From an uncultured Holophagaceae bacterium (GTDB lineage: Bacteria; Acidobacteriota; Holophagae; Holophagales; Holophagaceae), in contig CAIWKE010000028.1 in assembly GCA_903913215.1 (NCBI GenBank), forward strand, positions 186,001-250,000: a stretch of 64,000 nt of DNA, read 5' to 3'. The notes below the pieces were generated by a model. The model worked only from the letters and a program-made list of their open reading frames with translations, was not told the DNA's origin and made no database searches. A program made the translations under genes and the position numbers. The first letter of the stretch is position 1. Every line of letters begins with the position of its first letter. This document shows, in pieces, positions 33,991 to 40,635 of the stretch.

Positions 33991-34067
33991 GTACCCGTAG
34001 CTCAGCTGGATAGAGCGTTGGCCTCCGAAGCCAAAGGTCGCTGGTTCGACCCCAGTCGGGTACACCA
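33991..34067 (+). tRNA. tRNA-Arg (anticodon CCG)
   Basis: A full cloverleaf folds: acceptor arms GTACCCG and CGGGTAC, D arm GCTCAGCTGGATAGAGC, anticodon stem TTGGC/GCCAA with loop CTCCGAA giving anticodon CCG, T arm GCTGG-TTCGACC-CCAGT (wobble at the end), discriminator A, and an encoded CCA at 34065-34067. It reads the CGG codon. An intrinsic terminator follows five bases later. Confidence 0.95.
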
Positions 34068-34461: not shown

Positions 34462-35367
34462 TCAGGATACGCCCTCACGCAACGATGGTGAGTCTGGCAG
34501 CAGAAGGCCCGCCCCGAGGGGCGGGCCTTCTGCTGCGGGCGCTGGGTTCTGGGCTGCAAATTGGGCCGGTATCTGGTCGTTCAAGGCACTATGAGGCCTG
34601 CTGTGGTTGTAATCGTGGCGTCAGGCTGCCATTTTGCCTCTCACCTCAGGCATCGATCGGAATATCTCTGTGTTCAAGCACTCGTCCCTGAGCCTCCCGT
34701 TGAAGCTCTCGATGAAGGCGTTCTCTGTGGGCTTTCCTGGCCGAATGAAGGCCAGCTGCACCGCCCTTGAGTCTGCCCAGGCATCCATCACCTTCCCGGC
34801 GAATTCACTGCCGTTGTCCACGGTGATCGATGTGGGCTTGCCGCGCTCTCGAACGGCAATATCCAGAGCCTCAGCCACATCGCTGCCATTCAGCCTGGGC
34901 TTGTCCCGGATGGGCACGCATTCCCTGGTGAACTGGTCCACCACAGTTAGGATCCGGAAGGATCGCCCATCCTCAAGGCGCGCAGCTACGAAGTCCATGC
35001 TCCACCTCTGATTTTGGGCCTTTGCCGACTCCACGACCAGCGGCCTTCTACGAGCGATTTTCTTCCGTAGCTTGGTCCGAATCATCAGACCTTCCTCCTT
35101 GTAGATCCGATAGACCCGTTTCGTGTTCACCATCCAGCCTTCCCGCCTCAGCAGCACCGTCAGGCGCCGGTAGCCAAAGCGCACCCGGGTTGCCGCAAAT
35201 TCCTTTAGGCGCATTCGCAAGGGAAGCTGGGGATCCCGCCGATGCTTGTAGCGGAGGCTTGGCCGGCAAATGCCAATCAGGCCGCAGGCTTGCCGTTCGC
35301 TATTGCCAAAACCCAGACAGACCCAGGCCACCAGTGAACGCCGCACTGCGGCCTTCAGACTTTTTTT
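34462..35367 (-). pseudogene. IS3-family transposase OrfB, interrupted by a TGA
   Basis: The DDE integrase-like half of the transposase, normally made by -1 frameshifting from OrfA. Visible catalytic regions are WSMDFVAARLEDGR (first Asp), ITVDNGSEF (second Asp) and PTENAFIESFNGRLRDECLN (Glu). The frame stops at 34621-34623 (TGA), but the same frame continues with RHDYNHSRPHSALNDQIPAQF, the conserved C-terminus, to a second stop at 34462-34464. The TGA stands where the family usually has Trp (TGG), so this is a single-base nonsense change. The perfect GC-rich hairpin at 34497-34536 falls inside this restored tail. Confidence 0.85.
34497..34536. terminator. Perfect 19-bp palindrome in the IS tail
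   Basis: GCAGCAGAAGGCCCGCCCC (34497-34515) and its exact reverse complement (34518-34536) are separated by GA. The stem is very GC-rich and could terminate transcription in either direction or block read-through into or out of the element. Confidence 0.6.
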
Positions 35368-35621
35368 GAAAGCACTTCCTGGAGGATGTGCTTGTCCAGG
35401 CTCGGGTCGGCCATCAGGCGCTTCAACCGGTTGTTCTCGTCTCGAAGCTGCCTCAATTCCCGCAGCTCTGAGACCCCAAGCCCCCCGTAGGCAGCTTTCC
35501 ACCGGTAGAAGGTCTGCTCGCTGACCCCGAGCTTTCGGCAAACCTCTGGCACTTTGGCCCCGTTCTCTACCTGCCTCAACGCGAAGACGATCTGCTCCTC
35601 GCTGTGTCCCTTCCTTGGCAT
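35355..35621 (-). CDS. IS3-family transposase OrfA
   Basis: An 88-residue helix-turn-helix and leucine-zipper protein: MPRKGHSEEQIVFALRQVENGAKVPEVCRKLGVSEQTFYRWKAAYGG, then the coiled region LRELRQLRDENNRLKRLMADPSLDK. This is the IS407-type OrfA pattern. Start ATG 35619-35621. Its last codons contain the A7-G slippery run (35361-35367 on the plus strand as T7), at which ribosomes would shift -1 to make OrfAB. Confidence 0.88.
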   Translation of the reverse strand: MPRKGHSEEQIVFALRQVENGAKVPEVCRKLGVSEQTFYRWKAAYGGLGVSELRELRQLRDENNRLKRLMADPSLDKHILQEVLSKKV

Positions 35622-35879
35622 CTCTGCCTCCTTGGCTGGGCTCCCTCTAGGATGCCCTCCAAGCCCCGAAATTCGCATAATCCCTGGTCTGGTTTTTGGG
35701 TTTTGGGTCAAACCCTCGCAAAGCTTGGCCGGACTCCTCAATCAGCACTCCATATTCTGCAGCGACCTCCTTTTTTGGGTCACTCAGGAGTGGGAAGGCA
35801 ACGCCTTGGACGCCGCCCTGAATACTGACTCTGTAGACAGTTCGTTTTCGGGATGGGGAAGGCCGATCATCACCAATCA

Positions 35880-35921: not shown

Positions 35922-36085
35922 TTACTTGGGGGGCCGGGCCACCCCGATTTCCCCTGCGCACCCACCCCCACCGGCCTGAATCAGGGCGGTGCAGCCTATC
36001 TGTTTTTTCTCCATGTCTAAGCCGCCCATATTTATTATGTTCTACAACTATTCACTGAATTCCAACGACTAAGGGGAACCCTGTC

Positions 36086-37357
36086 ATGAGTGGCTACAAC
36101 GCAGTCTTAGCAAGGAACACGGAAAAGGCCCCCAAAAGTATCGGTCCCTATTCACAAACTGTAGCTTTCTCTCATTACAATAATTTTTCAGCTCAATTAC
36201 CTATCGATCCAACGACTGGGAAATTGGTAGCCGGTGGTGCCAAAGAGCAGGCTGACCAATGCTTGAAAAACATTAAAGCCATTTTGGAAAGCATCAACCA
36301 TGTGATGGACGATGTCGTCAGAATGACTATAATTCTTAAAAATATTTCAGATATTGAAGTTGTTGATGGCATTTACTCGACCTTCTTTTCCAGCTATCTT
36401 CCTACCCGGACGACAGTCGCAGTTGCAGCTTTACCCATGGATGCCTTGGTACAGATTGAAGTGCTTATCACAAATGGTGAAGGCACGATTCCAAATGCCC
36501 CACAGGCAGGCGACCTCATCAAACTTACAAACACCACAGATAATGCCCCTAAAAATTCACACTCCACGCAAATTGTAGCTTTTTCGCATTACAACAATAT
36601 CTCAGCCCAATTACCTATCGATCCAATCTCTGGCAAATTGGTAGCTGGTGGCATCAAAGCCCAAACTGGACAGTGCTTGAAGAATATCAAGGCTATTTTA
36701 GAAAGTATTGATATTCCTTTTGATGATATCGTTAAAATAACCATCTTTCTTAAAGATTTTGCGGATCTTGAAGCTGTAAATGAAGTTTATGCAACATTTT
36801 TTCCGGATTCAGCTATCGCCAGGTTTGTCGCCTATGTTCCAGCACGGACGACCGTTTCGGTTTCAGCATTACCTATGGATGCTCTGGTGCAAATTGAAGC
36901 CGTTGTTTCACATGGAGACGGTACACCTCCGCAAGCTGTTGAAGATAGGCATGGACTGATTATCGAAGCCAACAATACGGAACATGCACCAAAGAATTCT
37001 CTATCTACCCAAACGGTAGCATTTTCTCATTACAATCATATTTCGGCTCAATTACCCTTGGACCCAACCACGGGCAAAACAGTAACTGGTGGCGTAAAGG
37101 AACAAGCTGCCCAGTGCTTGAAAAATACTCAAGCCATTTTGAAGAGTATCGACCACGTGATGGATGATGTCGTTAAAGTCAATATTTTTCTGAATAATAT
37201 CCAGGATATAAAGGCTGTAGATGAGGTTTATACAACCTTCTTCCCAAGCGGCATTCCTGCGCGGCGAACCATTGGCGTATCGGCTTTACCTGAAGGTGCT
37301 TTAATTCAAATTGAAGTGGTTGTCGCAAATGCTGAGGGAACTCCTCCAAAGGCGTGA
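36086..37357 (+). CDS. Three tandem RidA (YjgF/YER057c/UK114) domains in one chain
   Basis: A 423-residue protein of three RidA-like domains, about 5-132, 145-276 and 292-420. RidA hydrolyses reactive enamine/imine intermediates such as 2-aminoacrylate, releasing ammonia, and is normally a homotrimer of about 130-residue chains. The substrate-carboxylate Arg is kept in every copy (R108, R254, R393), as is the active-site Glu (E125, E271, E410). Other site residues differ: GPY with Tyr22 occurs only in copy 1 (NSHS and NSLS in the others), and the active-site Asn is present only in copy 2 (N232; Asp in the others). Copies are also similar at DNA level, indicating internal duplication. The gene is AT-richer than its neighbours (line 36121-36180 is 43% G+C), suggesting transfer. 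AAGGGGAA precedes the ATG. Confidence 0.88.
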   Translation: MSGYNAVLARNTEKAPKSIGPYSQTVAFSHYNNFSAQLPIDPTTGKLVAGGAKEQADQCLKNIKAILESINHVMDDVVRMTIILKNISDIEVVDGIYSTFFSSYLPTRTTVAVAALPMDALVQIEVLITNGEGTIPNAPQAGDLIKLTNTTDNAPKNSHSTQIVAFSHYNNISAQLPIDPISGKLVAGGIKAQTGQCLKNIKAILESIDIPFDDIVKITIFLKDFADLEAVNEVYATFFPDSAIARFVAYVPARTTVSVSALPMDALVQIEAVVSHGDGTPPQAVEDRHGLIIEANNTEHAPKNSLSTQTVAFSHYNHISAQLPLDPTTGKTVTGGVKEQAAQCLKNTQAILKSIDHVMDDVVKVNIFLNNIQDIKAVDEVYTTFFPSGIPARRTIGVSALPEGALIQIEVVVANAEGTPPKA

Positions 37358-37650: not shown

Positions 37651-40635
37651 ATGAGCCTCAGCAAAGCACTTGTTCATCGCACCTGGGGGGCCGCCCTCCG
37701 AACGCTGGCGTCACGGGTGGGCCTGGTCTGCGCGCTGCTATTACCCGTGCCGGGACTAGGTGCGGGGGTGGTGAGAATTGGGGTGCTTGCCTACCGTCCT
37801 AGGCCCCAGGCCCTTGAGCAGTGGCGACCTCTGGCCACCGCTCTGAAGCAAGCCATGCCCGAGCGTGACTTTGTGGTCGACACCTTCACATACTCCGAGC
37901 TCAATCAAGCCATCGCGTTACGCAATCTGGATTTCGTCCTGACCAGCCCTGGTCACTATGTGCAGCTCAAGATGAAGGGGGAACTCTCGGCGCCCCTTGC
38001 GACCTTGATGACCGCCGTGGGCGGACGCCCGACCAGCAGCTTCGGCGGCGTCATCTTCTGCCGCGCTGGGCAGACCCGAATTCAGAAGCTCGGGGATCTC
38101 AAAGGCTTGAGAATCGCGTTCCCCGACACCGAGTCTTTGGGTGGCTACCAGATGCAGGCATTCGAGCTCCATCAGGCAGGGATCCAGCTGCCCTGGGATG
38201 CAACCCTGATCGCCACCGGGGTTCCCCATGACAATGCCGTGGAAGTGGTCTTGGCCGGTCGGGCTGACGTTGGCTTCGTACGAGAGGGGGTCTTGGAGGG
38301 GATGGCCCAGGAAGGGAGGCTGGATCTGAGCCGCATCCAGGTGATCAACCGCCAGGAGAGTCCCGGTTCCGCCTCGCTGCGCTCCACCCAGCGCTACCCA
38401 GAGTGGCCCATGGCGGGCATGGCGGGGATCGACAGGAATCTGGCCCGGAAAGTCGCCTCAGCCCTCCTTGGCATGAAGGAGAACAAGGCCGCGTTGGGCG
38501 CCGTGGGCACCTACACCTTCGATGTGTCCGCCGACTACGCGCCCGTGGAGGACCTGCTGCGGGAATTGCGCCTGCCACCTTTTGAGGTTGCACCCAAATT
38601 TACCGCCATGGACATCTGGTCGCGCTACCCATGGCAGGTGCTGGTGGGCTCCGTGGCGATTGGGATCATCCTGCTGCTCATCTCCCGCCTGCTCCTGGTG
38701 AACCGCAGGCTGGATACGGAGAAGCACACCGTGCAGCAAGAGCGGGAAAGCCTAAGGGTGTCCGAAGCCGAGCAGAGGGCCCTCATCAGCGCCATTCCGG
38801 ACCTCATTTTCACCAACCATCCGGACGGGGAATTCCTCGCGGTCCATGCCTCCAACCCGAAGGAACATGAGGTGCTGGAGAACACCTTCCTGCACCGGAA
38901 GCCATCAGACATACTGCCGCCGCTTCTCGCTGAACAGTTCATGCGGGCCTACCACGGCGCCATGGCTTTGGGTACCGTCCAGGAGCTTCACTATTCTCTG
39001 TCCCTGGGTCGTAAAGACAGGCAGTTCGAAGCCCGTGTGGTGGCCAGTAGCCAAGAGCGGACGATCACCATTGTCAGGGATGTCACCAAACGCGTGCGGG
39101 CCGAGGAGACACTGCGCGAGGCACACCGGTTTAATCAGGCCATCCTCCAGAGCGCGCGTGAGGGGGTGGTCGTCTATGACCTTGATTTGCGATACCAGGT
39201 CTGGAATCCATTCATGGAGCACTTGACGGGCATCCCCGCAGGCGAGGTGCTGGGCAACCATCCACTTGAGGTGTTTCCCTTCCTCGAGGAAGCTGGCGTT
39301 ATTGAGCTGCTGGAAAAGGTGCTTGCCGGAAAAGAGGTTGCTCCAATCGATTTTCGGTTCCAGATCCCGGCCACGGGGAAATCGGGTTGGACCATCGACG
39401 CCTGCGCCCCACTGTGCGATGGAGAGGGCAAAATCATTGGGGTCATCGAGACGGTGACTGACATCACCGCGCGCAAGCAAGCGGAGGAGGAATTCGCAAA
39501 ACTGCAGGCCCAGCTTCAGCAATTCCAGAAAATGGAAAGCCTTGGAATCCTGGCGGGGGGTGTAGCGCATGACATGAACAACGTGCTGGGGGCAATTCTC
39601 GGATTGGCCTCGCTTCACCTCGACCTGCAGCCCGCCGGCAGCCCGCTCCACCGTGCATTTCACACCATCAGCAAGGCCGCCGAGCGGGGCGGGCAGATGG
39701 TCAAGGGCCTGCTGAGCTTTGCCCGCCAGACACCGGCTGAGAGCCAAGAACTTGATATGAACACGCTCCTCAGGGAGCAAATCAGCCTGCTGGAACGGAC
39801 GACCCTGACGAACGTCACCCTGCACTTGGACTTGGAGCGGGAGTTGCGGTTCATCCGGGGGGATGCCAGCGCCTTGACCCATGCCCTCATTAACCTCTGC
39901 GTCAACGCCGTGGAGGCCATGACTGAGCAGAAAACCCTCATCCTCCGCACACGCAATGTCGACAACGACTGGATCGAGGTGGTGGTGGAAGATACCGGAA
40001 TGGGCATGAGCCAGGAGATTCTGGCCAAGGCCATGGACCCGTTCTTCACCACCAAGGAAGTCGGCAAGGGTACCGGACTGGGACTGTCCATGGTTCATAG
40101 CACCGTCAAGGCCCACCGGGGGAAGTTGGCGATCCAGAGCGAGCCCGGCAAGGGCACCCGCGTGGTGCTGTGCTTCCCCGCCAGCGTGCGGGAAGCCCGG
40201 GTTGCCGCTGTGGCGGCGGCCGAGCCCACCCTGATGGCCTCAGGGCGCCTGAAGGTGCTGCTGGTGGATGACGATGACCTGATCCAGAGCGCGGTCCAGA
40301 TGATCCTGGAGGGACTGGGTTACGAGGCAGTGTCCACAGCCCAGAGTGGCGAGGAGGCCCTGGCCATGCTGGCAGCGGGAGTCAAGGCCGATGTCGTCAT
40401 CCTCGACATGAACATGCCTGGACTGGGTGGGGTTGGCACCCTGCCGCTCCTTCGGGCCATGTACCCTGGAGTTCCGGTGCTCCTGAGCACCGGCCGGGTC
40501 GATCAGACGGCCCTGGATCTTGCCGCGGCCCATCCTGGCGTTTCCCTACTACCTAAACCCTTCGGCATAAGAGAACTGCAGACGTTCCTTGTAGCCATCA
40601 GTTTGAGGCCAGACATGCTTGCGCAAGCAAGGTAA
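37651..40635 (+). CDS. Hybrid histidine kinase with PhnD-like periplasmic sensor
   Basis: A 994-residue kinase. After a signal/anchor segment (about 18-40) comes a PhnD/SsuA-type periplasmic binding domain (about 41-310; VRIGVLAYRPRPQALEQWRPLATAL, DFVLTSPGHYVQLK, GLRIAFPDTESLGGYQMQ), as in the tetrathionate sensor TtrS. One membrane helix (about 330-352) leads to two PAS domains (about 370-480 and 490-610). H640 lies in GGVAHDMNNVLGAIL, the HATPase has DTGMGM and GTGLGLSMVHSTV, and the receiver has D919 in VVILDMNMPGLGG. The ligand is unknown; location beside the urea island makes a small nitrogen compound plausible (inference). No strong ribosome-binding site is visible. Confidence 0.88.
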   Translation: MSLSKALVHRTWGAALRTLASRVGLVCALLLPVPGLGAGVVRIGVLAYRPRPQALEQWRPLATALKQAMPERDFVVDTFTYSELNQAIALRNLDFVLTSPGHYVQLKMKGELSAPLATLMTAVGGRPTSSFGGVIFCRAGQTRIQKLGDLKGLRIAFPDTESLGGYQMQAFELHQAGIQLPWDATLIATGVPHDNAVEVVLAGRADVGFVREGVLEGMAQEGRLDLSRIQVINRQESPGSASLRSTQRYPEWPMAGMAGIDRNLARKVASALLGMKENKAALGAVGTYTFDVSADYAPVEDLLRELRLPPFEVAPKFTAMDIWSRYPWQVLVGSVAIGIILLLISRLLLVNRRLDTEKHTVQQERESLRVSEAEQRALISAIPDLIFTNHPDGEFLAVHASNPKEHEVLENTFLHRKPSDILPPLLAEQFMRAYHGAMALGTVQELHYSLSLGRKDRQFEARVVASSQERTITIVRDVTKRVRAEETLREAHRFNQAILQSAREGVVVYDLDLRYQVWNPFMEHLTGIPAGEVLGNHPLEVFPFLEEAGVIELLEKVLAGKEVAPIDFRFQIPATGKSGWTIDACAPLCDGEGKIIGVIETVTDITARKQAEEEFAKLQAQLQQFQKMESLGILAGGVAHDMNNVLGAILGLASLHLDLQPAGSPLHRAFHTISKAAERGGQMVKGLLSFARQTPAESQELDMNTLLREQISLLERTTLTNVTLHLDLERELRFIRGDASALTHALINLCVNAVEAMTEQKTLILRTRNVDNDWIEVVVEDTGMGMSQEILAKAMDPFFTTKEVGKGTGLGLSMVHSTVKAHRGKLAIQSEPGKGTRVVLCFPASVREARVAAVAAAEPTLMASGRLKVLLVDDDDLIQSAVQMILEGLGYEAVSTAQSGEEALAMLAAGVKADVVILDMNMPGLGGVGTLPLLRAMYPGVPVLLSTGRVDQTALDLAAAHPGVSLLPKPFGIRELQTFLVAISLRPDMLAQAR

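Follow-up and report, generated by a model that had tools for sequence, protein, structure and literature searches.

The window analysed here, the whole stretch of 64,000 nucleotides from an uncultured Holophagaceae bacterium, carries a gene encoding three RidA domains in tandem (here denoted 3x-RidA). The gene is one intact ORF of 423 amino acids with an ATG start, preceded by AAGGGG at 36071-36076. The complementary strand of 36086-37357, in the one frame read, contains many stops. Upstream of the gene are a tRNA-Arg (33991-34067) and an insertion sequence, and 293 bases downstream lies a hybrid histidine kinase (37651-40635), in which an N-terminal TtrS-like periplasmic binding region is joined to kinase and receiver parts. 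The GC content is 0.41-0.45 inside the 3x-RidA gene versus 0.57-0.72 outside, with intermediate values where the measured interval spans an edge of the gene. A second three-domain copy (paralog), 76% identical, lies on contig C23 of the same genome, and contig C37 carries a lone single-domain RidA. The second 3x-RidA and a gene for a tyrosine recombinase are 1.6 kb apart (L008:7633-8904 and L008:10479-11942). The features of the locus are:

34621..35741, reverse strand, IS3-family insertion sequence with two transposase frames, upstream of 3x-RidA (NF033516 match)
36086..37357, forward strand, 3x-RidA gene, 423 amino acids (ORF and profile matches)
36107..36475, forward strand, RidA domain 1, residues 8-130 (profile and alignment; bounds used in the domain tree)
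36521..36913, forward strand, RidA domain 2, residues 146-276 (profile and alignment)
36806..36829, forward strand, 8-residue insert of domain 2, residues 241-248 (missing in 3 of 87 sequences)
36962..37330, forward strand, RidA domain 3, residues 293-415 (profile and alignment)

Both PF01042 (E 4.3e-78) and TIGR00004 (303.7 bits; cut-off 106.25) match the protein in three stretches, confirming the three tandem domains in 423 residues read by the initial annotation and placing the protein in the RidA subfamily by profile. That annotation had also suggested a single-chain RidA trimer and a structure prediction of the chain as a monomer. The AlphaFold2 model (59 sequences) has a mean pLDDT of 89.8 and a pTM of 0.91, its low-confidence parts being residues 132-136 and 418-423. 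Foldseek matches listed for the model are single-domain RidA-type chains. In VIA-align the top three matches are chorismatases (5a3k_C, Z 27.2; 5ag3_B, Z 27.0; 4bps, Z 27.0), which superpose over 288-291 residues from model residue 28/29 to 414 (5a3k_C over 291 of its 332 residues at 3.0 A); single-domain RidA-fold chains rank below them, matching one domain each at Z 17.9-23.7. Chorismatases resemble the RidA trimer. The superposition of the whole chain therefore suggests that the three domains are arranged like those of a known one-chain protein of RidA-like fold, and the prediction supports a single-chain RidA pseudo-trimer whose domains would form three clefts among themselves. The salt-bridge residues conserved in each domain (see below) support this packing as well. 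Co-variation of Lys79 with Asp/Glu positions comes from 11 sequences only, probably mostly of one clade, and does not resolve the domain pairing. The suggested pseudo-trimer is thus supported by prediction, and the idea of a one-chain trimer was published and named ten years ago (PMC4433059).

A database search for other three-domain RidAs, also suggested by the initial annotation, yielded 570 confirmed relatives among contigs, the best 80 of which encode the same three-domain protein at 64-82% identity. The translated genes (83, including the window's own, L090) encode 414-429 amino acids and have no inner stops. For alignment and trees we used 87 sequences, taking in the window copy, the paralog and five from the genus, with L090 removed as a duplicate of the window; 78 of the 87 tree rows belong to 7 named phyla, and the other 9, the window's group included, are without a named phylum. 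An Enterococcus faecalis homologue is 67% identical to the window protein over the full length. A rare one-off fusion was rejected, since at least 80 loci of the 570 relatives, as well as other genomes of the genus, carry the same protein. In the domain tree all 261 domains of 3x-RidA fall in one clade (support 0.83). Domain 3 (87/87, 0.98) and domain 2 (87/87, 0.59) are each a clade and also group together (174/174, 0.77), while domain 1 is only partly a clade (65/87). A single triplication fits this tree, the support being modest.

At least three genomes among the 80 of the phylum that were searched carry a separate three-domain RidA:

L145:3640-4887, separate three-domain RidA
L146:3798-5054, separate three-domain RidA
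L147:3861-5072, separate three-domain RidA

These proteins of 403-418 amino acids, two of which (L145 and L146) are closely related to each other, form their own clade (9/9 domains, support 0.999). They keep the Arg in all three domains and Glu120 in 9/9 domains, and have neither the Lys-Glu pair nor the Ser-His-Tyr turn described below. Judged by the tree and these residues, they are a fusion independent of 3x-RidA. Frequent unrelated multi-RidA fusions without site asymmetry were what the initial annotation had named as speaking against its reading, and with L145-L147 this objection holds by half. The N-terminus of L145-L147 is hydrophobic and resembles a signal peptide, and the proteins are perhaps exported.

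In RidA, the substrate carboxylate is bound by Arg105/107/165; a substrate-side Glu at Arg+15 is contributed by the neighbouring subunit (TdcF E120, UK114 E122, AtRidA E180), and the residue at Arg+17 (UK114 E124, AtRidA E182) forms a salt bridge between subunits with a Lys at Arg-29, as described in passages of PMC4960622, PMC7311433 and PMC5979572. Residues were counted in the 87 sequences of 3x-RidA (261 domains) and in 31 single-domain RidAs of the phylum, namely the 30 best-scoring loci of 80 genomes searched and the genome's own copy, a choice that biases the comparison set to typical RidAs. Tyr17, Gly31, Asn88, Arg105 and Glu120 are each present in 31/31 of this set. The corresponding positions of the window protein, with the turn that marks the family, are:

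36170..36178, forward strand, family turn S29-H30-Y31, domain 1 (87/87)
36407..36409, forward strand, R108, ligand-binding Arg, domain 1 (R 68/87, L 17/87)
36452..36454, forward strand, Q123 replacing RidA Glu120/122, domain 1 (Q 85/87; E in 31/31 single-domain RidAs)
36584..36592, forward strand, family turn S167-H168-Y169, domain 2 (87/87)
36845..36847, forward strand, R254, ligand-binding Arg, domain 2 (R 84/87)
36890..36892, forward strand, Q269 replacing RidA Glu120/122, domain 2 (Q 87/87)
37025..37033, forward strand, family turn S314-H315-Y316, domain 3 (87/87)
37262..37264, forward strand, R393, ligand-binding Arg, domain 3 (R 86/87)
37307..37309, forward strand, Q408 replacing RidA Glu120/122, domain 3 (Q 86/87)

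Each domain of the window protein thus has the Arg105/107 of the RidA subfamily, and none has its Glu120/122. Across the family, Arg+15 is Gln in 258/261 domains versus Glu in 31/31 single-domain RidAs; with Gln in place of the substrate-side Glu in every domain, the three sites have undergone the same change. The Gly of SGQ, present in 31/31 single-domain RidAs, is Ala in 253/261 domains (86, 87 and 80 of 87 by domain). Arg+17 is Glu or Asp in 261/261 domains (87, 87 and 87), Arg-29 is Lys or Arg in 260/261 (87, 86 and 87), and a Ser-His-Tyr turn in the first hairpin is invariant (261/261). Two points speak against taking the Gln for a loss of function: the Arg is kept, and changing Tyr17 or Glu120 to Ala altered the activity of Salmonella enterica RidA only slightly, as stated in part of PMC4433059.

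By these counts, half of the residue argument of the initial annotation fails. It had placed an Arg and a Glu in all three copies, and R108/R254/R393 and E125/E271/E410 are indeed present where it put them, but the Glu were misassigned to the active site: they are the salt-bridge residues at Arg+17, so that a catalytic role for them was rejected, and Arg+15 is Q123, Q269 and Q408. Its reading that the Tyr of GPY (Y22; Tyr17/21 of RidA) is kept only in copy 1 and the Asn of 'VNxxY' (N232) only in copy 2 is correct for the window protein. The inequality of the three sites that it drew from this pattern is seen in the window but is loosely kept in the family, where Tyr occurs at 22, 160 and 307 in 58, 0 and 8 of 87 sequences and Asn at 94, 232 and 379 in 24, 75 and 24; it comes on top of the change at Arg+15 that the three sites share. 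A strict pattern with one site left was rejected, as the exact RRR/DND/YSS combination is found in 22/87 sequences and RRR with NNN and SSS in 5/87. Overall, the central idea was right in form and had already been published.

The distribution of the gene is patchy. 3x-RidA is found in 6/47 genomes of the window's genus versus 0/30 genomes from elsewhere in its order; within the phylum, a single genus out of 210 (396 genomes) has it. The copies of Desulfosporosinus lacus and a Clostridium share 94.6% DNA identity in the gene, the match stopping 36 and 34 bases beyond it, and the same Clostridium copy is 86-87% identical in gene DNA to those of a Flavobacterium or a Desulfobulbaceae bin. The tree of 3x-RidA requires 14 phylum changes, the least possible being 6 and the mean for shuffled labels 34.6; it mixes phyla, though its clustering by phylum is much stronger than that of shuffled labels. 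The paralog clusters with the remaining copies from the genus and the window copy is placed elsewhere, at weakly supported forks. The gene mostly stands alone: at 76 loci a same-strand neighbour lies within 50 bases upstream in 2 and downstream in 1, and median gaps to the neighbours, with ORFs called mechanically, are 329 and 274 bases. By these sequence comparisons, the 3x-RidA gene looks horizontally acquired and seems to move mainly as a stand-alone unit. Matches were also seen in a phage collection, in records suspected to contain host sequence.

Most loci have no neighbour in common: among 101 of the 143 nearest-neighbour proteins listed, the commonest family, MFS, occurs 5 times. In Citrobacter sp. 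R56, 3x-RidA follows the genes for FdrA/AllF, AllG, AllH and carbamate kinase by ~150 bases on the same strand; the allFGH and carbamate kinase set is the oxamate carbamoyltransferase operon according to passages of PMC11326118. On a Vibrio parahaemolyticus plasmid the order is agmatine deiminase, a carbamoyltransferase annotated argF and then 3x-RidA, with carbamate kinase nearby on the opposite strand, and Photobacterium has the same order, again with carbamate kinase on the opposite strand. A tblastn search with 16 pathway proteins against the best 80 of the 570 loci (flanks up to 6 kb) detected carbamoyl-phosphate genes in Citrobacter and Photobacterium only. An Rfam scan of 11 loci gave 7 matches, all in L010 (a T-box, five tRNAs and a group II intron piece); the ten remaining loci gave no match.

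Upstream of the 3x-RidA start, a Bacillaceae-type leader with a motif like TTTAGACCGGTTTTTTCGGTGC was observed in L016, L019-L024, L026, L031-L033 and L037. Its ACCG could pair with an upstream or downstream CGGT, making it a possible regulatory leader; the five leader loci scanned had no Rfam match at the gathering threshold. An exact search for the motif in 10 genomes gave three matches, each just upstream of the genome's own 3x-RidA and of no other gene. The Clostridium copies L010, L013, L015 and L060 share a promoter resembling TTGACA-19 bases-TATAAT, with an imperfect dyad, upstream of 3x-RidA. This spacing may point to MerR-type regulation.

Co-occurrence with carbamoyl-phosphate catabolism was counted in 151 genomes of one family, centred on G077 (itself a carrier), of which 16 carry 3x-RidA; the arcC, AllG and DpaL counts were taken as one genome set, as handles and totals agree. 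In comparisons that ignore kinship and include no neutral control gene, carbamate kinase (arcC) was detected in 15/16 carriers versus 29/135 others (Fisher p 1.6e-8), AllG (oxamate carbamoyltransferase) in 12/16 versus 11/135 (Fisher p 9.7e-9), DpaL in 3/16 versus 2/135 (p 0.009), and AllG among arcC-positive genomes in 12/15 versus 11/29 (p 0.011). Without G077, G079, G080 and G082, carriers already in the analysis before the draw, arcC is present in 11/12 carriers (p 1.9e-6) and AllG in 8/12 (p 6.3e-6). Four of the 16 carriers are without AllG, one of these also without arcC. We compared 20 arcC loci from 15 carriers with 20 from 20 non-carriers, picked by us among the matches listed: arcC lies in an AllF/AllG cluster in 16 versus 5 and in an OTC cluster in 3 versus 12. 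No listed arcC or AllG lies within 25 kb of 3x-RidA in any of the 16 Bacillaceae-type carriers. An arcC count against 14 control genomes (13/16 versus 2/14 over the cut-off) was set aside, as it compares different lineages, in favour of the within-family and within-genus counts.

In the window's genus, carbamate kinase has a match in 45/47 genomes, 2 of them over the cut-off; since it is near-universal there, only a second copy beside DpaL is informative. Such a second carbamate kinase is encoded at the edge of contig C35 of the window's genome, with DpaL/YgeX and YgeY homologues (L156:388-3699), a set that resembles part of the uricolytic set YqeA-YgeY-YgeX of Escherichia coli as given in part of PMC12507026. 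The L156 genes may belong to a cluster for anaerobic urate or ureide catabolism. Within the genus a DpaL homologue is present in 6/6 carriers versus 5/41 non-carriers (p 4e-5, kinship ignored); that of the window's genome scores below the TIGR01747 cut-off and above that of NF006058. 3x-RidA thus co-occurs with carbamoyl-phosphate catabolism, a link that is apparently new. The initial annotation had suggested an imine substrate linked to nitrogen release; an imine may be the substrate, and the gene is indeed found alongside carbamoyl-phosphate and ureide pathways that release nitrogen and, in its own genus, alongside a homologue of diaminopropionate ammonia-lyase. Rid genes in general are reported to cluster with carbamoyl-phosphate genes (section 6 of PMC4433059). 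Among the papers listed by searches that did not extend to subscription literature, none was seen to tie 3x-RidA to oxamate carbamoyltransferase, allantoin, carbamate kinase, urate or diaminopropionate, and 'RidA' is absent from the main text of PMC11326118 and PMC12507026.

We propose that 3x-RidA is a mobile one-chain pseudo-trimer, a small-molecule handler specialised for by-products of carbamoyl-phosphate/ureide catabolism, a reading to which we give an even chance. Each cleft would keep the Arg for binding a small carboxylate, together with the Lys/Arg-Glu/Asp bridge that fastens the interface, and would present Gln for the substrate-facing Glu and Ala for the Gly of SGQ in all three clefts. 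Feeding pathways may be allantoin/oxalurate by AllFGH and carbamate kinase, agmatine deiminase and carbamate kinase, or a diaminopropionate branch. 3x-RidA would remove or capture a by-product of these pathways, either a reactive one or a carboxylate, leaving the housekeeping role of 2-aminoacrylate deaminase to the cell's single-domain RidA. In this reading the domain content, the residue replacements, the sequence family, the patchy spread and the co-occurrence are observed and the fold and packing predicted, while ligand, reaction and physiological role are inferred. A mobile neofunctionalised trimer that performs no enamine deamination, and processes or captures a catabolic carbamoyltransferase product such as oxamate or a breakdown product of carbamoyl phosphate, seems doubtful to us. 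Oxamate, a pyruvate-like amide, reportedly undergoes no further metabolism in E. coli (passages of PMC11326118).

Ordinary RidA activity in one chain, with 2-aminoacrylate/2-iminopropionate hydrolysed at up to three clefts, the Gln mattering little and the fusion only stabilising the trimer, is a possible explanation that we do not favour. In its own genus 3x-RidA accompanies DpaL, and the chemistry of this PLP lyase could yield 2-aminoacrylate. The Arg is kept in 68, 84 and 86 of 87 sequences by domain, and ordinary deaminase activity may survive the Gln, given the mild effect of Ala at Tyr17/Glu120 in the S. enterica enzyme (passages of PMC4433059). Yet the Glu and Gly present in 31/31 single-domain RidAs are replaced nearly throughout 3x-RidA and the new residues are fixed, the Tyr is gone from copy 2 (0/87) and mostly from copy 3 (8/87), and the cell already has a single-domain RidA on contig C37.

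Replacement of Glu by Gln in all clefts with the Arg kept would also suit a ligand-binding pseudo-enzyme or sensor, which takes up a carboxylate (oxamate, pyruvate, carbamoyl phosphate) in its clefts and regulates or chaperones a partner instead of catalysing. We regard this as improbable: the lack of a fixed operon around 3x-RidA agrees with it, as does the chaperone activity of modified RidA described in part of PMC4284807, but no partner gene is fixed beside 3x-RidA. There is little likelihood, too, that the gene is a passenger on mobile elements and its co-occurrence an effect of lineage or lifestyle, for instance of facultative anaerobes gaining many catabolic operons. The patchy spread, the low GC, the IS3 element upstream and association statistics that ignore kinship all accord with a passenger, whereas the 83 translated genes of 414-429 amino acids without an inner stop and the residues invariant across 7 named phyla do not, and 3x-RidA adjoins operons feeding carbamate kinase in two different pathways (Citrobacter; Vibrio/Photobacterium). 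This mobile Rid branch, altered alike at three sites and co-occurring with carbamate kinase and oxamate carbamoyltransferase, offers a tractable protein for testing the link between Rid proteins and carbamoyl phosphate. A natural one-chain trimer also allows single sites to be mutated one at a time.

The name 3x-RidA is that of Niehaus et al. 2015, whose example, EF_0115 of E. faecalis, is described as 'presumably covalently linked trimer units' (passages of PMC4433059); among the papers listed by a search that did not extend to subscription literature, only this one uses the term. The window protein is like that 3x-RidA in its three tandem RidA domains, presumed to be a covalent trimer; residue analysis, structure, distribution and pathway are not covered in the part of PMC4433059 examined. 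With RidA (TIGR00004, PF01042; TdcF, UK114, YabJ) the window protein shares the fold, the essential Arg and the interface Lys-Glu pair. It differs from single-domain RidA in being one chain, in having Gln for Glu120, Ala for Gly31 and the Ser-His-Tyr turn, and in the equivalents of Tyr17 and Asn88, each lost in two of its three copies. L145-L147 have three RidA domains in common with the window family, but they keep Glu120 and are without the Lys-Glu pair and the Ser-His-Tyr turn. The chorismatases 4bps, 5a3k and 5ag3 are like the window protein in their one-chain fold, as judged from the superposition of 288-291 residues of the model, whereas sequence identity is 12-15%. Chorismatase is counted among RidA-family activities in part of PMC4433059, and the catalytic Glu of Hyg5 is Glu334 (passages of PMC7170507). 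Estimated from the range ends of the superposition, Glu334 would line up with Q408, provided that 5a3k follows Hyg5 numbering and that there is no gap in the last strand.
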